A stretch of DNA of 64,000 bases from Phycisphaerae bacterium (GCA_012729395.1 JAAYDF010000037.1:1-64000), one strand, 5' to 3'. Shown: positions 48,124 to 58,839, counted from the stretch's first letter. Numbers and translations: made by a program. Notes: generated by a model not told the origin, from the letters alone.

Positions 48124-50991
48124 TCAAGGGGTTTTGTCGGGCAGCCGTTGCATGTTGATGCGTTCGAGGTCTTCGAGTTGGCGTCGGCAGCGAGGGTTGC
48201 CGAGGTCGGGGGACAGGTGTCGTCGCTGGCGGATGGCCTGCACGAGTTCTTGGGGGTTGTGCTCCAAACGGGTATGGCAATCGAGAGTGCCCACGAGAGC
48301 TCGCCACCATGCGGCGGAGCCCTCGGCGGTTGTCTGGCGGATGGTGGTGTAGATGGGCAGGGCTTCGGCGTAACGGTTGGTAGCAGCAAGAGCCTCCGCC
48401 CGGCCGAGTTGGATCTCGACGGGCAGAGCGGTCTGTGGGCCGAGCACGTCGGGGGCACGTTTGAGGCATTCCTCGAAAACAGCCAAGCTGTCGTGGGCTT
48501 GGCCGGCGGTCAGCAGGGCCCAGCCGAGCCACGTGTGGATGGTCAGGAGATCATGGCTGGTGACCCGGCCGGGCTGGTCTTTGGACCATTGGAGTAACAT
48601 GCGGGCGAGGGCGACGGCCTCCTCGCTGAGTTGTCGGACGGTGTCTGTGTCGCCGCGATCGGCGGCTTCGTCTACTTCTTCTCGCAAGGCTTCCAGGAGG
48701 CGGGCGATGGCTGGGCCGGCATGTTCGGCGTCGGCGAGGAGGAACTGCTCAACGACTTGGCGGGCCTCGGTGAGGCGTTTCAACTGCCGCAAGGCGATCA
48801 CCTGTTCGCGAAGGTGCCCGCCAACGGTTTCCGGGCAACCGGCCAGGAGGGGCTCGGCCTTGGCCAGCGTATCGAGGGCCTCGTCGGGGCGTTGCACGGT
48901 GGGGTCGTTGAGGACGTTGGCGAGCAGGAGGGCGGCATCGGCGGCGAGGCAGGGGGGGAGGGTTTCGCTTCCGGGTTGGGTGGTGGCCCGGCTTACGGTC
49001 GCCGCGTTGTGGGCTGCCGAGACAGTTTCCTGGGCCAGGGTTTTGAGGTCCTGTTCGGCGAGGTTTCCGTCGGCGTTGGCCCAATGGAGCAGGCGGTTGA
49101 GGCAACGGGCCTTGCCGAGGGCGGCGGTGGGGGCGTCGTCGGCGGTGGCGGGCACGTTGCCGTATTCGTCGGCGGCTTCGCGCAGGCGCCCGAGGTGTTC
49201 GAGGGCGGCGGCGACACGTCCGGTGATTTGACCCGCCAGAGCGGAGCTTGGGGCGGTCTGTCGCAGAAGCCGGCCCGCTTTGATGAATGCCTGCCAGTCG
49301 GACACGGTTGGCGGCGGTTGAGTCTGGCTGAGCACCTCGTGGGTGATGGCGACGGCCTGTTCGGCGGCGGTGGGCGTGCGGTCGTGTCCGGCATGTTGGG
49401 TGACGAGCTGCATGAGCATGTCGGCGGCTTCGGTTCGTCGGCCGGCGAGGTAGAGGGCGCGAGCGGTGAGGAATGTGAGTTCGCCGGCCTGGGGGGCGGG
49501 CAAGGGTTCCGGCGAATTCTGGAGGGCTCGACGTCCGGCGTCGGCGACGCGTTCGAGTCGCGGATGGCGGGCCTGGTCTGCGGCGTCGGGGGTTCGCATG
49601 ACGTCGGCGAGGACGGCTCCACAGGCGAGCTGCAAGGCGAAAGGCGGGTCATCGGGCGAGAGCGTATGATCGGCGAACACTCCGGCAAGCAGGCGGTAGA
49701 TCGTATCACGGGTTTCAGGCGATGTATCGGCGAGTTGCCGGAGCGGGGCGAGGGCCTGCGCGGGCCGCAGGAGGCTGGTGGCAGGGGTTTGGCCGGGTGC
49801 GGATCGGGCGAGGATGGAGCGTTCGACCAGGGCGATGGCCAGCATGGGGGGCAGTTCCTGCGGACGGCTTTGTTGTGCCCATTCGCGAGCCTGCTCGACG
49901 GCCTGGAGGGCTTCGTCGAGTTTGCCTGCGTCGCGGAGGGCTCGGATCTGTTCGATCACGCTGACCAGGCCGGTGGTGCGCAGCCGGCGGCGTATCTGAG
50001 GATCCGCGATTTGTCGTTCGGTGGTGATGATCTCTCGGGCGCATGTGCCGGCGATGTCAAACCGCTCGGTGAGTCGGGCGGCGGCGGCGGCGAGGATCAG
50101 GGCATTGCAGCGTTGGACGAGATCACCGGCGGCGGGGTCGGTCCATCCGGTTTGCTCGGTCACCTGGACGAAGAGGTCGGCGAGGATTTGGCTGCGTTGC
50201 GGGGCGGGGAGCTCGGCGGTGATGGCGTGGTAGAATCTGGCCCAAGCGAGCAGATACGCTGATTGACGGTCGAGTTGCTCGACTTCGGCCAGGGCGCCGG
50301 ATGCCGTGGCGGCTTCGAGCGCGGCTTCATCCCATTGATCGGCCGCGTCCCAGGTGGCGGTGATGCGGGCTCGGAGCGATTCGAGGTGGGCGATGGCTTC
50401 GCCGCTGAGTGAAGCCACGGTGGCCCGGTCGCGTCCGGGCACTTCATACAGCAAGACGGCTTCGAAAGCCTCCGGTGCTTGACGATCGAGGGCATCGCGT
50501 GCGGCCTCCATGAGCCAACGGGCATGGCCTGGATGGTCGGGGTGCCGTTCGATCAAGGCTTTCAGGATTGCGGTCGCCTCGGTGAGGCTTGCTCGTTGCT
50601 CTTGCGGCGGCGTGTCGGGGTTGGACCAACGGGCGAGCAGACGCTCGCGGCGGCGGATCTGGGCGTCGGCCTCGTCGGCGGGCGGGTGGTCGGCTTCGTG
50701 TTGTTCGAGCCAGTCGAGCAGACCGCGTTGGCGCAGACCTTGGCGGAACGCGGCCTCGTCAAGTGCGGGGGAAAGGGGGGGAGGGGCGATGGCGGGCTTG
50801 TCCGCTGTCGCCGGCCGGGCCGAAAGCCAGCCGAACGCCAGCAGCGCCGCAATGACGGCCAGGCTTTGGTAGATGCGTGCGCGAGCGTTGTGCGGAGCCG
50901 CGACCGTAAGGGAGCGGTGGCTTTCGCCGGGCAAAACCGCTTCCTTGCGGGCGCGGCTCTGATGGGACCGATTCGCGTTCCGAGCGGTCAT
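48124..50991 (-). CDS. large TPR-like repeat protein, membrane-anchored N-terminus
   Basis: Coding to 48124; ATG 50991 overlaps ExbD stop (50988); helical-repeat composition; TM IYQSLAVIAALLAFGWLSA. Confidence 0.65.
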   Translation of the reverse strand: MTARNANRSHQSRARKEAVLPGESHRSLTVAAPHNARARIYQSLAVIAALLAFGWLSARPATADKPAIAPPPLSPALDEAAFRQGLRQRGLLDWLEQHEADHPPADEADAQIRRRERLLARWSNPDTPPQEQRASLTEATAILKALIERHPDHPGHARWLMEAARDALDRQAPEAFEAVLLYEVPGRDRATVASLSGEAIAHLESLRARITATWDAADQWDEAALEAATASGALAEVEQLDRQSAYLLAWARFYHAITAELPAPQRSQILADLFVQVTEQTGWTDPAAGDLVQRCNALILAAAAARLTERFDIAGTCAREIITTERQIADPQIRRRLRTTGLVSVIEQIRALRDAGKLDEALQAVEQAREWAQQSRPQELPPMLAIALVERSILARSAPGQTPATSLLRPAQALAPLRQLADTSPETRDTIYRLLAGVFADHTLSPDDPPFALQLACGAVLADVMRTPDAADQARHPRLERVADAGRRALQNSPEPLPAPQAGELTFLTARALYLAGRRTEAADMLMQLVTQHAGHDRTPTAAEQAVAITHEVLSQTQPPPTVSDWQAFIKAGRLLRQTAPSSALAGQITGRVAAALEHLGRLREAADEYGNVPATADDAPTAALGKARCLNRLLHWANADGNLAEQDLKTLAQETVSAAHNAATVSRATTQPGSETLPPCLAADAALLLANVLNDPTVQRPDEALDTLAKAEPLLAGCPETVGGHLREQVIALRQLKRLTEARQVVEQFLLADAEHAGPAIARLLEALREEVDEAADRGDTDTVRQLSEEAVALARMLLQWSKDQPGRVTSHDLLTIHTWLGWALLTAGQAHDSLAVFEECLKRAPDVLGPQTALPVEIQLGRAEALAATNRYAEALPIYTTIRQTTAEGSAAWWRALVGTLDCHTRLEHNPQELVQAIRQRRHLSPDLGNPRCRRQLEDLERINMQRLPDKTP
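50893..50961. repeat. GAGCCGCGACC-family palindromic repeat inside coding sequence
   Basis: CGGAGCCGCGACCGTAAGGGAGCGG...CCGCTTCCTTGCGGGCGCGGCTCTG. Confidence 0.8.
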
Positions 50992-51470
50992 GGTGGCGCT
51001 TCCGCGAAGAAGATGCGATGGTACTGGGCGGCCATGGCGGCGTTGTAGGCGTTGACCACGTGCTCCCAAGGGATATTGTCGCCGGCGAGGAGGATGACCG
51101 GGGCGCCTGTATCGAAGCCGGGGATGGAGTCGCGGATTTCTTCGAGTCGGGCGGCCAGGGAAGGCAAGGGGATGGCCGACGGGCTCAGGTGTTCGATGAC
51201 CGCCATGCCCGGTCCGCCGGGTACAATGGCCGGCTCGATGCGGATGCGGATGGGCTCGCGTGGGATCTCGACGGCCACCGCGTCGTCGGGCGGCGGCAAC
51301 TGGGCCGCGAGCATGCCCTCGGGCGACTTGAAGCGGCTGACGGTGAGGAAGAAGAAGAGCAGCAGGAATACGACATCGATCATCGGCGTGAGGTTGAGCG
51401 ACATGGCGCCGCCGAACCGACTGCCGGTCCGTCGTTTGAGGGATGATGCCGACCGCTGTCTCATGGCCAA
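50988..51470 (-). CDS. ExbD/TolR-family biopolymer transport protein (second copy)
   Basis: GAMSLNLTPMIDVVFLLLFFFLTVSRF. Confidence 0.9.
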   Translation of the reverse strand: MAMRQRSASSLKRRTGSRFGGAMSLNLTPMIDVVFLLLFFFLTVSRFKSPEGMLAAQLPPPDDAVAVEIPREPIRIRIEPAIVPGGPGMAVIEHLSPSAIPLPSLAARLEEIRDSIPGFDTGAPVILLAGDNIPWEHVVNAYNAAMAAQYHRIFFAEAPP

Positions 51471-51611
51471 GAGATTACACCAAGGCGAGCGAGGACTAAA
51501 GTGCCGAATACGGCCGGGACAGGCGGACGTCTATCAGGGCGGTGATTCGGCGTTTTTTTGGACAGGAGGACGCTGCGCCGTAGCGGTCGAAGGCTCTGGC
51601 GGCCGCTGCGC

Positions 51612-52214
51612 ATGGTATTGCACCAACGTCTGTCCAATGTGAGCGGGAAGTTTGAACTCGATGGGCCCAGCCCGATGGCCGGCCATGTTGGAGGCGAGCT
51701 GTGGGGCGATCATGTGCGGTGCTGGCTCAGCCATCCGCAGGGTCCCCACGGGCGGTTCGAGGTGAGATTCGACGGGCATGTGCGTGACGATACGATGGCA
51801 GGGACGTTGGGGGTAGCCGACCAGGGCCGGATCGAGGAGCGACCGTGGGAGGCCCGACGGGACCAGGTGGACCTGACCGGCACGTGGAAATGGCCGTGCG
51901 CGTCGGGGCCGCGTCCAGTCCGGCTCCGCATCAAGCGATGGAACGATCAGCTCACGGCCACGTATCTCGATGGGGGTCGGGAGACTCCCGTCGCGGACTT
52001 CTACGATTTCGGAGGCGGCTTCTACTTGACGTTGTTGGTGGGGCGGAAGGCACACGGCATGGTCGTGACAGAGGACGCTGGCTGGCTGATCGGGTGCGCG
52101 GTGGTCGAAGACGGAATCCTGACGGGCACGGTCGAGTTCCATCCCTACGATGCGCCGTCCGAGCCCCGCTCTGGAAGGCCTCAGCCCTGGACGCCTCAGC
52201 GCGTGATCGAATGA
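51612..52214 (+). CDS. hypothetical protein (beta-rich)
   Basis: SGKFELDGPSPMAGHVGGELWGDHVRCW...DLTGTWKWPC...DFGGGFYLTLLVGRKAHGMVVTEDAGWLIG; upstream ORF extension falls in repeat DNA. Confidence 0.5.
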   Translation: MVLHQRLSNVSGKFELDGPSPMAGHVGGELWGDHVRCWLSHPQGPHGRFEVRFDGHVRDDTMAGTLGVADQGRIEERPWEARRDQVDLTGTWKWPCASGPRPVRLRIKRWNDQLTATYLDGGRETPVADFYDFGGGFYLTLLVGRKAHGMVVTEDAGWLIGCAVVEDGILTGTVEFHPYDAPSEPRSGRPQPWTPQRVIE

Positions 52215-52421
52215 TCGGCGAGCAGGTGGTCGGGATGTGGAACGGGCAGGGGATGCCACGGGGCATCACCGATTGTTGACCTCCGTGTTCCCGCCACGCG
52301 CGTGACGTCGGCCATGGTGACGTGATGTCGGCGGTCGAGCCCATCCGTCCGGGAACAGGCGGTGACCGGTCGAGGAGAATGAGTGATGCCCGCGGCTCCT
52401 TGCCAGCAAGTAGACGTGTGC

Positions 52422-52660
52422 GAACCGCAACGCGGTTCCAGAACACAGCCCGGGGTCGCGCAGCGCACCCCGGGATCCATGCCGGCAGGCACAGATCAAC
52501 CCTGAAAGGGTTGCATAAGCCATCATTCGAGGTGGCAGGGGAAGAATACCCGTCTGGAGAGAAGTATCAAACCCTTTCGGGGTTTGGGGAAGACCGGTGG
52601 TCTTGCGACCCAGGGTGCGCTGCGCGACGCTGGGCTGTGTTATTTAACGCCTTCGGCGTT
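52422..52660. repeat. array of at least seven short perfect/near-perfect hairpins
   Basis: GAACCGCAACGCGGTTC (52422), CCCGGGGTCGCGCAGCGCACCCCGGG (52449), AACCCTGAAAGGGTT (52498), AAACCCTTTCGGGGTTT (52569), AAGACCGGTGGTCTT (~52590), CCCAGGGTGCGCTGCGCGACGCTGGGC (52609), AACGCCTTCGGCGTT (52646). Confidence 0.8.
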
Positions 52661-52728
52661 GTACGTGTATCGCGGCCTGTCCGAGGACGCTCAACACGCG
52701 TTCGGCGTTGTGCGTGCATTGCAGCCGC

Positions 52729-53181
52729 TCACGGCATTTCGGTGACCACCTGGAGTTTGGTCAAGTTCTGGGCGGTGATGACCTCCATGACTTGGCGAAC
52801 AAGGCCGTAGGGCAGTCGGCGGTCGGCGCGGAGGATGACTTGGGTATCGGGGTTGGTCCGGCCGACCTCGTTGAGCCGGGCGGCCAAGGTAGCCAGGGAA
52901 TCGAGGCGGCCCGGGCCGATGGCGAACGCGGGGGGGCGGTCCTCGCCTTCAAACACCATGTTGATGGTCACCTTTTCGGGAAACCGGCGATCGACGGCCT
53001 GGTTGTGGTCGGGGCGGGGCAGCTCGACCTCGGTCCGCTCGACCGAAGCAAAGTGGGTGGCCAGCATGAAGAACGTCAGCAGCAGGAAGGTGACGTCGAT
53101 CATGGGCGTGAGGTTGATAAGCCCGCCGCCGCGTTCATGCCGATGAAGATGGCTAAGGATGGCCATCGAATCTCCCGTCAT
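52729..53181 (-). CDS. ExbD/TolR-family biopolymer transport protein (first copy)
   Basis: GGLINLTPMIDVTFLLLTFFMLATHFASVERTEVELPRPD. Confidence 0.9.
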   Translation of the reverse strand: MTGDSMAILSHLHRHERGGGLINLTPMIDVTFLLLTFFMLATHFASVERTEVELPRPDHNQAVDRRFPEKVTINMVFEGEDRPPAFAIGPGRLDSLATLAARLNEVGRTNPDTQVILRADRRLPYGLVRQVMEVITAQNLTKLQVVTEMP

Positions 53182-53232
53182 TTACCGATCGTTTGACGCG
53201 CAGCTCACCGCGTGCATAACGCCTCGAGCAAA

Positions 53233-53279
53233 ATGGCCAATGCCCAAGGCCCAATGACCAATCAATGAGCAAGCCCGAA
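53233..53279 (+). repeat. dispersed 47-nt repeat (second copy; other at 5851-5897)
   Basis: ATGGCCAATGCCCAAGGCCCAATGACCAATCAATGAGCAAGCCCGAA; ~45/47 identical to 5851-5897. Confidence 0.85.
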
Positions 53280-53431
53280 ACCCGGTTGCGTAGCGGCCGC
53301 CGCCTCTGGCGGCCGTTGGGCGGCGATACACCTCTCGTGCCGGTCGCCACGGGGGGCGACCGCTACCGAGGCGCGGCGCTCGTCGCCGCTGGGGCGGTGG
53401 GTGTCCGGGCACGCCATTCGTCGCGGACATA

Positions 53432-54370
53432 TTACGCCCGAGCCTTTCCCATTTTGGCTCCCTCGGGCGGTGGCTCGGGGCCCTTGGTTTCGGCGGCCAG
53501 GGCGATCAGGCCGTCGCAGAGTTTCACCGCCTCGGAGGCGTAGGTGTCGATCCGGTTGCGGAACAGGGCGAACGCCGCCAGGGCGGGGATGGCGATCAAG
53601 AGGCCCCAGAAGGTGGTCACCAGGGCAACGGCGATATCGCCGGCCAGCTTATCCGCCTCGGGCATACCGCCGCCGGCCGCGAAGATGCGGCTGAATGCCT
53701 GGATCATACCGACCACGGTGCCGAAGAGCCCGATCATCGGACTGATCTGCCCGATGATGTTGAGGTACTCGACCCTGCGGAGGAGTTTCATGGCTCGTTC
53801 CTCGACGGCCTCCTCGATGGCGGCCCTGGCGGCCTCGCGTCCGGCGGACAGTCGCGACATGCCCGCATGGGTTGCCTGCCCGATCATGCTCTCGTCCTGG
53901 CGGGCGAGTTCCGCGACGCGTTGGAGTTGGCCCTGCCGGCCGGCGGCGGTCAGCAACTGGGCCAGCCGGACCGGGGTCTGTGTTCCGCGGCGAATGGTCA
54001 GCAGGTAGTGTATCGCCAGCGCGACCGTGACCACCGAGAGTGGGATGAGGATGCACCAAGTGATCCACCCGCCGTCGGCCACGAAACGCTGAAGGACGGA
54101 GACGGAGGGCAGGCCTTCGGCGGCGAGTATCGGGGAGTGGCGGTTCGAGGCGGCGATGATGTCAGCATGCGTATGCGTGGCCGACACTCCGATCAAAGCT
54201 GAGGCTCCCAACAGAGCCGGCGCTCTTAGCAGAGCGGTGGCCGCCTGCCCTTGAGGTCGCGCAGCGATGTGAAGGGTGGGGAAGCGGTTCTTCCCGGCCG
54301 GTGTCGCCGGTCCCTGAGGGTCGCGGCCTGGCTTGACGTTCTCGCACATAGTCTTGGAGCGGTCGTGCAT
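53432..54370 (-). CDS. MotA/TolQ/ExbB proton channel family protein
   Basis: RRVEYLNIIGQISPMIGLFGTVVGMIQAFSRIFAAGGGMPEADKLAGDIAVALVTTFWGLLIAIPALAAFALFRNRI. Confidence 0.92.
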   Translation of the reverse strand: MHDRSKTMCENVKPGRDPQGPATPAGKNRFPTLHIAARPQGQAATALLRAPALLGASALIGVSATHTHADIIAASNRHSPILAAEGLPSVSVLQRFVADGGWITWCILIPLSVVTVALAIHYLLTIRRGTQTPVRLAQLLTAAGRQGQLQRVAELARQDESMIGQATHAGMSRLSAGREAARAAIEEAVEERAMKLLRRVEYLNIIGQISPMIGLFGTVVGMIQAFSRIFAAGGGMPEADKLAGDIAVALVTTFWGLLIAIPALAAFALFRNRIDTYASEAVKLCDGLIALAAETKGPEPPPEGAKMGKARA

Positions 54371-54400
54371 GTTGCTTCTCGCTTGTCGAGGACCCGGGCA

Positions 54401-54521
54401 GGGGCAAAATGGGGACAGGCACCGCCCGATCACGGTCGCAGAGACCCTCGACTTCGCTCGCATCCGAAGATGCTTTGTTCACCAAGCATCGCTGGGGCGG
54501 AGCCAGTCCCCATTTCGCCCC
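54401..54521. repeat. hairpin repeat of AAAATGGGGACAGGCACC type, copy D
   Basis: GGGGCAAAATGGGGACAGGCACCGCC ... GGCGGAGCCAGTCCCCATTTCGCCCC. Confidence 0.7.
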
Positions 54522-54552
54522 GATGCCGCCAGCCTCGCATACGCCGCCGGGG

Positions 54553-55773
54553 TTACGGTTCCACCCGCTGGATGGCTTCGCGTGCCTGCCCGGCCCAAGT
54601 CGCTCGTGGGTACTCGCGCAGGAGTTCCTCCCACAGGCCCCGTGCCTGGTCGGCTTGCCCGGCTTCCCGGCAGAGCGTGCCGGCATGATACAGGCACTCC
54701 GCGGCCAAGTCGTGCCGGGGAAAGTGGATCACGACCCGCATGAAGGCCAGTCCCGCCCGGCGAGCCTCGCGTAGACCATCCGAACCCGTCAGGCCGGCCA
54801 TTTTGCCCTGGTGTGCCCGGCCGAGCCAGTAGTACAGCTCGGGCAGATGGGTGCGGCCGGCCGACCGCAACGCCTCGGCGGCGCGCTCGGCGGCGCTATC
54901 AAACTGCCCGGCGGTCACCCGCTCGGTCACCTCGCGGATCGCGTCGGTTTCGGCTGCGTGGTTCGTAGGTATGTGGGGCGTGGGTAACGCGTCGCCACTT
55001 GCCGTCGGCGTCTGGCTAGGCCAGGTTGCGCGCCATTGAGTCAGAGACGCACCGACGAGGCTGTGTTCGTAACGGCGGATGGCCGCGTCTACGGCGGACC
55101 TTGCCGCCGGCAGAAAGGTCGAACCGGCGGCCGGCATGTTCACCGGCCGGAGCGAGTCCACCACCGCGGGCATGCGCTCGATGACTTGCAGATAAGTTTG
55201 CACCGCTCGGTCAAATTGCCCCTGGGCGTCGTGCACCCCAACGAGCCGGCACTGTACGAGCAGGCGGCGGTCCAGTTGGCCCGGCTCCGCGTTGTCGGTG
55301 GGCAGGTCGGCCAAAGCTTGCTCGTATGACTCCTCCGCCTGGCGCCAGCGGTTCTGGCGGCGGTGTTGCTCTGCTTGGTTGAAGAGCGGCCATTCGGCGA
55401 TCTCCAAGAAGGCGATCTCGTCGATCGGTCGGGTGATGACGCGGTCGGGCGTGCGGTGGTAGTGGAGTTGGCCGTCCTTGAGTTCGACGATGCGGACAGC
55501 GGTGGCGGGGGGGCGATTGTGCGGCTCCACCACGTCGGCATGCGTGAGGGCGGGCAGCAGGAGCGTGAGAAGCACGGTAACCTGCGCGAGCTGACCCAAG
55601 CGGGACAAGAGGTTGTGGGCTCCAGTTCGCGCGGTTCCCTGACCGGGACCTGTGGTTGCCCTACGCACAGGCACCGCGCGGGCTGAAGCCCGCGGCTCGT
55701 TGGCTTGCGATTCGTTGGCCTGCGGCAATACCGAAGAGAGCCGTGGCTTGGGTCGTGGCTGCATCCCCTTCAT
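54553..55773 (-). CDS. TPR-repeat protein with signal/TM N-terminus
   Basis: EQHRRQNRWRQAEESYEQALADLP, AAECLYHAGTLCREAGQADQARGLWEELLREYPRATWAGQAREAIQ; ATG overlaps VWA stop (TCAT at 55770-55773). Confidence 0.72.
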   Translation of the reverse strand: MKGMQPRPKPRLSSVLPQANESQANEPRASARAVPVRRATTGPGQGTARTGAHNLLSRLGQLAQVTVLLTLLLPALTHADVVEPHNRPPATAVRIVELKDGQLHYHRTPDRVITRPIDEIAFLEIAEWPLFNQAEQHRRQNRWRQAEESYEQALADLPTDNAEPGQLDRRLLVQCRLVGVHDAQGQFDRAVQTYLQVIERMPAVVDSLRPVNMPAAGSTFLPAARSAVDAAIRRYEHSLVGASLTQWRATWPSQTPTASGDALPTPHIPTNHAAETDAIREVTERVTAGQFDSAAERAAEALRSAGRTHLPELYYWLGRAHQGKMAGLTGSDGLREARRAGLAFMRVVIHFPRHDLAAECLYHAGTLCREAGQADQARGLWEELLREYPRATWAGQAREAIQRVEP

Positions 55774-56807
55774 CGTTGCGTCTCCACGGAGCGGAAGTTG
55801 CCGCCGTGGTTGCGGGCGATTCGTTCCAGCAGGGCCCGCGAGCGTGGCGACGGCTCGAATCCGATGACGGTGATGGCCACGGACCGATCCGCGTTCAACT
55901 GGTCGAGTGTGCGTTCGAGTTCGCTCTCGACGTCGGTGTAGTCGCCGTCGGAGAGGAAGTAGATCAGTTCGGGCCGGACGGCGAATGCCCGCTTCATCGC
56001 CTCAACGGGGTCGGCCTTGCCGGGCTTGGGGATGCGGTCGATGGTTGCAAGAAATGCCTCGGCCTCTTGGACGTATCGGTTCACGGCCGGCACCAAGCGG
56101 CGGGACCCCAGTTCGTCGATTTGTCGCGAGCGGGTCAGCACGATGTGGAACTTCTGGGTTGGGATGAGCCCCCGCACCGACTGTCGCATTTCGCGGATGA
56201 TGTCATCCGTGTAGATCCACAGCGAGGCCGAGACATCGACGACGTAGACCACTTTGTAGGCGTTACCGGTTTGCCCGAAGAAGACGCTGGCGGGCCCGAC
56301 CGTCCCTGCGCCGGTGGTGGTCATGGAGGGTGTGGCATCGAGCATCGAGGCCACCGGCGGGCTGGCCACCTGGTCGAGCGTGACGGCGGGTAGGGGGATG
56401 TCCGCCAGACGCGGGCGTTCGAGGGTGGGTGTGGCGGACTGTTGGGCGAGCTTGAGATGCGGCGATGCGGCGGGGGCATGCGGATCGGCGGGTGCCGCCA
56501 GTCGGGCTTCGGGGATGATGACCCGGCGAGCCTGGACCTCCTCCCGCAGGATGACCCCCCAGAAGGCGAGAAGGATACTCAGGTGGACGGCTACCGAGAC
56601 GCACCAGGCGAAGGCTCGCGATCGGACCGCCCGTCCCAGGCGGGAGGGAGCCACGAGGCAACAGGGTTGTGCGGGCGACGTGGACAAGGCTGGCAACATC
56701 CAAAGCAGGCGATACCGCCGAGGCGGCCGGGTCTTCCTCGCTGGCATTTCGCATCCGACTGGGTTCGCTGAAGATACGAGTTTATGCAGCCCGGTGCGGG
56801 TCGTCAA
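55770..56807 (-). CDS. VWA-domain protein with TonB-like N-terminal TM segment (start uncertain)
   Basis: N-term AFAWCVSVAVHLSILLAFWGVILREE; VWA MIDAS VYVVDVSASLWIYTDDIIREMRQSVRGL...LIYFLSDGDYTDVE. Confidence 0.8.
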   Translation of the reverse strand: MTTRTGLHKLVSSANPVGCEMPARKTRPPRRYRLLWMLPALSTSPAQPCCLVAPSRLGRAVRSRAFAWCVSVAVHLSILLAFWGVILREEVQARRVIIPEARLAAPADPHAPAASPHLKLAQQSATPTLERPRLADIPLPAVTLDQVASPPVASMLDATPSMTTTGAGTVGPASVFFGQTGNAYKVVYVVDVSASLWIYTDDIIREMRQSVRGLIPTQKFHIVLTRSRQIDELGSRRLVPAVNRYVQEAEAFLATIDRIPKPGKADPVEAMKRAFAVRPELIYFLSDGDYTDVESELERTLDQLNADRSVAITVIGFEPSPRSRALLERIARNHGGNFRSVETQR

Positions 56808-58136: not shown

Positions 58137-58331
58137 ATGAAGACGCTCAGCATCACTGTCCCGGATGCATTGGCGGACCGCCTGGAGCAATTTGTCCGTG
58201 ATGGGTGGGTCGCTGATTCCGAGCAGGCGGTTGTGGAGGCGCTGCGTCGATTTCTCGATTCACATCGCCCGGAACTGATCGAACGTCAGGTTCTCGAAGA
58301 TCTTGACTGGGGCCTGCATGGCCGGGATTGA
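58137..58331 (+). CDS. ribbon-helix-helix antitoxin-like protein
   Basis: MKTLSITVPDALADRLEQFVRDGWVADSEQAVVEALRRFLDSH, ParD/CopG-like. Confidence 0.75.
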   Translation: MKTLSITVPDALADRLEQFVRDGWVADSEQAVVEALRRFLDSHRPELIERQVLEDLDWGLHGRD

Positions 58332-58839
58332 CCCATCGTTGACCGTGACCGACGCGGGGCCGATCATACATCTCGATGAACTCGATTGCCTGGATTTGCT
58401 GAGTGACTTCGGAGAGCTTCTTATACCCATCGAAGTGTGGGATGAAGTAGTCCGCCATCGGGTGTGTTTGGGCGCGGATAGAATAGCCGGCCTTGGCGGT
58501 TGCGTGGTAAGAAATCCCGGGGTTCCTTCGCCGAGACTGCGGGCCCTGGTCGGTTCGCTCCGGCTCGACCGAGGGGAGGCGGCGGCACTAGCGCTGATGG
58601 AGTTGCGCGGTGCGCCATTGTTCCTCTGCGATGACGCGGCTGCACGCCTGGCGGCAGAATCGTTGGGATTCCCGGTGCACGGGACGATCGGTGTCCTGAT
58701 CCGATCGATCCGCCGAGGCATGCGTTCACGCGAGCAGGTGCTCGATATCCTGCGGCGTTTGCCGCATGACTCCACATTGCATGTTTCCCGGGAACTTCTT
58801 GCGACGGTCATCACCAGGATTGAGCAGGAGTCGAAGTAG
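58318..58839 (+). CDS. PIN-like DUF3368-type toxin
   Basis: LTVTDAGPIIHLDELDCLDLLSDFGELLIPIEVWDEV; LDRGEAAALALMELRGAPLFLCDDAAARLAAESLGFPVHGTIGVLIRSIRRG; overlaps antitoxin ORF. Confidence 0.78.
   Translation: MAGIDPSLTVTDAGPIIHLDELDCLDLLSDFGELLIPIEVWDEVVRHRVCLGADRIAGLGGCVVRNPGVPSPRLRALVGSLRLDRGEAAALALMELRGAPLFLCDDAAARLAAESLGFPVHGTIGVLIRSIRRGMRSREQVLDILRRLPHDSTLHVSRELLATVITRIEQESK

Follow-up and report, generated by a model that had tools for sequence, protein, structure and literature searches.

An ExbB/ExbD-type motor cluster built around a membrane-anchored VWA protein in a Phycisphaerae bacterium

In the ExbBD/TolQR systems known so far, the last component is TonB, TolA or one of a few alternatives. 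'vWA force transducers' have already been proposed, including in planctomycetes (Mol Biol Evol 2025, msaf138, PMC12204202, section 8, Fig. 4a,b): a single N-terminal transmembrane (TM) helix with a Ser/His pair is followed by a predicted beta-strand 'motor box', a Pro-rich linker of some 100 disordered residues and a vWA fold, and the gene lies with a tetratricopeptide repeat (TPR) gene, a tolQ-like gene and two tolR-like genes. These proteins occur in Planctomycetes and other phyla, and an AlphaFold 3 model docks their TM helix on the motor (PMC12204202). Here we analyze a gene cluster at positions 48124-56807 of a 64,000-nucleotide stretch, the window, from Phycisphaerae bacterium (GCA_012729395.1 JAAYDF010000037.1:1-64000). 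As vWA force transducers were proposed in 2025, the cluster adds a further member to a kind that is published though functionally uncharacterised (PMC12204202), rather than founding a new one. We consider it likely that its products form a Ton/Tol-like motor across the envelope, proton-driven and dedicated to a membrane-anchored VWA protein that stands where TonB or TolA would.

Read along the minus strand from 56807 to 48124, the cluster encodes the VWA protein, a first TPR protein (TPR1), an ExbB/TolQ-like channel protein, two ExbD proteins (ExbD1 and ExbD2) and a second TPR protein (TPR2). A first-pass annotation had given this six-gene order, and the reading frames and Pfam matches bear it out for all six genes, together with the ATGA (TCAT) overlaps of VWA with TPR1 at 55773-55770 and of ExbD2 with TPR2 at 50991-50988. 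The Pfam scores are 28.4 bits for VWA_3 (cut-off 27), 97 for MotA_ExbB and 82 and 54 for the two ExbDs, and the TPRs are also recognised. The combination of TPR, tolQ-like and two tolR-like genes that marks the published force transducers (PMC12204202) is found both in the window and in its relatives. Among 80 related loci drawn with ExbB alone as the query, independently of the VWA sequence, a VWA gene lies on the same strand in 68, two ExbDs in 62, TPR2 in 57 and TPR1 in 50, and the full set of six is present in 45, several of the loci ending at contig ends. The order VWA-(TPR1)-ExbB-ExbD-ExbD-TPR2 recurs across the class, as a check on the six-gene synteny had called for. The closest named relatives, with ExbB 63-68% identical, come from metagenome-assembled genomes of Phycisphaerae and other planctomycetes, which makes Phycisphaerae the most likely origin of the window.

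The VWA protein (P0001; 55770-56807, minus strand), the start of which is uncertain (TTG at 56807, ATG at 56747 or later), has a single N-terminal TM helix, AFAWCVSVAVHLSILLAFWGV, which carries the TonB-spaced S-x-x-x-H noted at first reading (S71-x3-H75 in P0001 numbering) and is followed by the expected Pro-rich linker. In the single-chain AlphaFold model the helix spans residues 58-94, residues from about 95 to 172 are unstructured, and a VWA fold with high pLDDT follows at residues 174-341, which is the architecture of the published force transducers (PMC12204202). With respect to the motor box, the linker shows no strand in this model, and a stretch RRVIIPEARL comes after the TM helix. 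Of the longer SHLS motif, S-x3-H-x6-L-x3-S (PMC12215075), P0001 keeps only the S and the H, the other two positions being F82 and I86; the Leu and Ser are also less conserved in TonB (PMC12215075).

Profile models of the TonB N-terminus from Pfam and NCBIfam give no match to P0001 at E<=1. Since short TM motifs score poorly in profiles, we used conservation counts and control helices instead. In a first sample of 58 VWA homologs from planctomycete genomes, many of them found through the VWA domain only, the position of S71 is Ser in 52 and that of H75 is His in 57, and SxxxH occurs in 51 of the 58 TM windows against 4.2 expected after shuffling. In a second sample, the ExbB-selected loci, SxxxH is present in every one of the 68 VWA proteins whose TM helix is visible, compared with one of 250 other N-terminal hydrophobic helices from the same loci. 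A motif not conserved in orthologs, named in the first-pass annotation as a threat to its proposal, is therefore not what we find: across the motor-linked VWA proteins that have the column, H75 is His in 106/106 and S71 is Ser in 101/106. Planctomycetes encode many VWA and TPR proteins, and an ordinary anchored VWA protein could in principle lie beside motor genes by coincidence, its Ser and His being a by-product of TM composition. The conservation of the pair far exceeds both shuffles and control helices and the gene order is conserved over the class, so that, given the ExbB-selected loci and the helix controls, such a chance neighbourhood appears very unlikely, to the point of being nearly negligible.

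The motor proteins carry the residues expected of the ExbBD/TolQR/MotAB type, namely pore threonines in ExbB and a TM Asp in ExbD. In the ExbB/TolQ-like protein (P0003; 53432-54370, minus strand) the threonines are T217 and T252, and S111 corresponds to Ser34 of E. coli ExbB; among VWA-linked ExbBs the Thr pair is kept in 102/102, the Ser34 equivalent is Ser in 100/102 and the Pro190 equivalent is present in 101/102. The TM Asp is D29 in ExbD1 (P0004; 52729-53181, minus strand) and D32 in ExbD2 (P0005; 50988-51470, minus strand), a divergent second ExbD, and is kept in 62 of 63 ExbDs. In the cryo-EM structures Ser16 and His20 of E. coli TonB join ExbB by contacting its Ser34 and Trp38, and the pore-lining residues of ExbB and ExbD are seen as well (PMC12215075), so the conserved Ser/His, the Ser34 and Pro190 equivalents, the pore Thr and the ExbD Asp are the same residues that join TonB to ExbB or line the pore. 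Like TonB-ExbB-ExbD, then, the cluster combines motor residues, S-x3-H in the transducer helix and a Pro-rich linker; unlike it, there is no TonB C-terminal domain or cognate receptor, there are two ExbDs rather than one, and the ExbB lies on a different branch. In the ExbB tree ten TonB-linked ExbBs fall on one side of a branch with support 97/87, and the VWA-linked ExbBs group together apart from them, save one long-branched row. A further threat that had been named, a TonB encoded elsewhere together with a non-syntenic VWA gene, does not describe this locus either: the VWA gene keeps synteny with an ExbB that is its own and phylogenetically separate, and the genome contains neither TonB_C nor TonB_2.

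A mechanism suggests itself. A pentamer of ExbB with a mixed ExbD1/ExbD2 pair (5:2) would conduct protons, the TM helix of the VWA protein would dock on the rim of ExbB through Ser71 and His75, and the movement of the motor would pass along the Pro-rich linker to the VWA domain. This domain might then engage the exported, CpoB-like TPR1 and the TPR2 solenoid, and through these partners would act on the outer membrane or the periplasm rather than on a TonB-dependent receptor. For the motor half, where proton flow would move the VWA protein through Ser71/His75, the comparative evidence is strong. It also supports the earlier proposal that proton-motive force is delivered to an extracytoplasmic VWA/TPR assembly, with the delivery of energy and its recipient being what we infer from it.

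Four points weigh against a dedicated VWA-driving motor. The basis is comparative, with structure predicted from single-chain AlphaFold models. A gap of 1.26 kb, with a gene on the opposite strand, breaks up the cluster, which may for that reason not be one transcript. The position of E. coli ExbB Trp38 is V, I, L or M in nearly all VWA-linked ExbBs; this Trp is mostly missing from the TonB-linked ExbBs of the phylum too, and we dropped it as a discriminator of the two groups, as it is conserved in neither. Finally, 20 of the 58 VWA homologs in the first sample, many of them from family f32, do not adjoin ExbB or ExbD, which leaves their partnership with a motor unproved, although coupling in trans would fit, as 18 of the 20 keep both Ser and His. 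The same SxxxH helix with no ExbB/ExbD next door is seen at L060, L066, L069, L073, L078, L087, L095, L096 and others, and the neighbours of such genes show lineage-local synteny only, with no new partner. Most f32 genomes have about seven ExbDs and no TonB_C, and their VWA proteins may be coupled in trans. In six other loci (L043, L048, L057, L076, L130 and L151) tandem pairs of VWA transducers lie upstream of a single ExbB-ExbD-ExbD set, which suggests two transducers sharing one motor.

The genome of the window (5.74 Mb, 99.55% complete) allows the relation to TonB to be analyzed. The first-pass annotation saw no TonB C-terminal domain, and indeed neither TonB_C (PF03544) nor TonB_2 (PF13103) is found in P0001 or in the genome, and no ExbD is found in the genome outside this cluster. 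It also saw no TonB receptor, which holds for the cluster but not for the genome, where one TonB-receptor-like (Plug) protein is encoded on contig C311 (L041, 4914-7127), adjoining a substrate-binding-like protein and a sensor kinase. With one Plug protein and no TonB domain, the VWA protein might be thought to substitute for TonB and energise this lone receptor. We regard this as highly improbable: two genomes (G002 and G172) carry the syntenic cluster and yet encode no TonB_C and no Plug protein; where a TonB gene of the relatives has motor genes nearby, these are an ExbB of its own, distinct from the VWA-linked one, and usually just one ExbD; and to our knowledge VWA domains have no mode of binding a TonB box. 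As far as genomic association goes, the cluster is not tied to a TonB-dependent receptor, there being none within it and Plug-free genomes carrying it. In a sample of 41 genomes of the class, 40 have a VWA match and all have ExbD, compared with 22 that have TonB_C, and within one genus two ExbDs without TonB (G157) contrast with three ExbDs and one TonB (G209 and G261). By these comparisons the VWA cluster is independent of TonB and near-universal in the class; beyond the class, with 115 of 392 genomes for this search depth, the distribution is patchy. The genome's three further PF01618 proteins, which are a MotA beside MotB, a second MotA encoded in a flagellar operon and a protein with a long coiled coil, were rejected as ExbD-linked motors, none having an ExbD. 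The last of these (L040, contig C93, 1352-4735) is a MotA/ExbB-type protein of 1128 aa whose long coiled-coil tail gives it a ZorA-like layout; no ExbD/ZorB-type partner is seen near it.

The target of the motor is best discussed through its TPR proteins. TPR1 (P0002; 54553-55773, minus strand) has a signal-peptide-like N-terminus, a small beta-type segment and CpoB/YbgF-like TPRs, and TPR2 (P0006; 48124-50991, minus strand), a conserved sixth component of about 955 aa, is an all-helical TPR solenoid with homologs across 23 loci. A fold search of the PDB with TPR2 returned general TPR or helical-repeat matches only, with TM-scores mostly <0.3 and no informative relative. Like TolQ-TolR-TolA with CpoB, TolB and Pal, the cluster has a TolQ/TolR-like motor, an S-x3-H helix and a possibly CpoB-like TPR neighbour; unlike Tol-Pal, a VWA domain replaces the TolA C-terminal domain, the genome lacks TolB_N (PF04052) and the cluster lacks a Pal gene. 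The leading refinement as to the target is accordingly a Tol-like envelope role, in which the cluster would replace Tol-Pal and stabilise or pull in the outer membrane at division; TPR1 would then correspond to CpoB, and the VWA domain to the C-terminal domain of TolA. The best match of P0003 to the TolQ model, the missing TolB_N and the near-universality in the class, as for a housekeeping envelope function, all point this way, as does, weakly, the resemblance of TPR1 to CpoB/YbgF. That match, to tol_pal_ybgF (45 bits, E 1.1e-11), lies below the curated cut-off of 90 and TPRs match promiscuously, no Pal- or TolB-like gene is found in the cluster, and the distribution outside the class is patchy, so we hold this role only tentatively. 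The cluster could also be a general outer-membrane energy-coupling machine of the class, where VWA and a pair of periplasmic TPR scaffolds would do the work of TolB, Pal and the C-terminal domain of TolA, and would need neither TonB, TolB nor metal-dependent adhesion; this we think rather unlikely.

By analogy with myxobacterial gliding, adhesion or gliding has been suggested for the vWA force transducers (PMC12204202), with the metal site of the VWA domain binding a surface ligand while the motor moves the domain. The VWA fold is confirmed in the predicted structure, and D-x-S-x-S is nearly invariant in the family, where the Thr position of the metal ion-dependent adhesion site (MIDAS) is usually T or S. 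In P0001 the VWA domain and DxSxS that had been reported are present (D191-x-S193-x-S195, with D287), but the metal site is not complete, the Thr being replaced by A265. Thr is likewise Ala or another residue in the five nearest relatives (L098, L101, L103, L099 and L102), and L103 also has DxTxS in place of DxSxS, while Ser and His are unchanged across the clade. Judged from the alignment, this is a clade-specific decay of the MIDAS: the metal site is less strictly conserved than the residues that couple to the motor, and this speaks against a role in metal-dependent adhesion for the clade. As the genome also already has flagellar motor genes, energised adhesion or gliding seems improbable here.

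The earlier description of the cluster as an operon stands for the order of the genes but not for their compactness. The gaps between TPR1 and ExbB and between ExbB and ExbD1 are about 182 and 250 bp, and that between ExbD1 and ExbD2 is 1258 bp, compared with <=99 bp in all 62 relatives. It holds a plus-strand open reading frame (ORF7, P0007; 51558-52214) of 218 aa with repeated GTW-type stretches and no Pfam match, flanked by non-coding sequence; ORF7 has one copy in the genome and is absent from related clusters, including those of close relatives. Short AACCCTTTCAGGGTT-type palindromic motifs occur at 52480-52580 within the same gap. Beside the cluster, ORF8 (P0008; 56784-58082, plus strand) encodes a helical protein of no known family and is transcribed divergently; 22 of the 80 related loci have it in this divergent position, and it may be part of the system. 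Since their N-termini, judged by eye, resemble signal peptides, TPR1, TPR2 and ORF8 are all probably exported. Further along, a PIN-domain/DUF3368-type protein by eye at 58303-58839 (plus strand) is a possible toxin-antitoxin remnant.

Compared with the published force transducers, the anatomy is the same, but for them a single TPR gene is mentioned in text and legend (PMC12204202) where we find two distinct conserved ones; in addition, a divergent exported gene is often present here, the clade has lost the MIDAS Thr, and this genome has an interruption within the cluster. A second family, TPH-vWA, likewise places a VWA protein beside a TolQ-like gene, but it has no ExbD/TolR or SHLS and carries the pore Asp itself (PMC12204202), unlike this cluster with its two ExbDs and Ser/His pair. 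The main text of transposon-based essential-gene papers on Planctopirus and Verrucomicrobium does not mention these genes. What is new here is the quantified conservation with controls, the large TPR solenoid as a second TPR component, the divergent exported neighbour, the separate ExbB lineage, the near-universal presence in one class, independent of TonB, and the decay of the MIDAS in one clade. The named partners, two TPR proteins and a divergent exported protein, and the conserved Ser/His make the system directly testable in a cultured relative. A putative VWA-driving motor in nearly all genomes of the class, with TonB or without it, points to an energy-coupled process at the planctomycete envelope.
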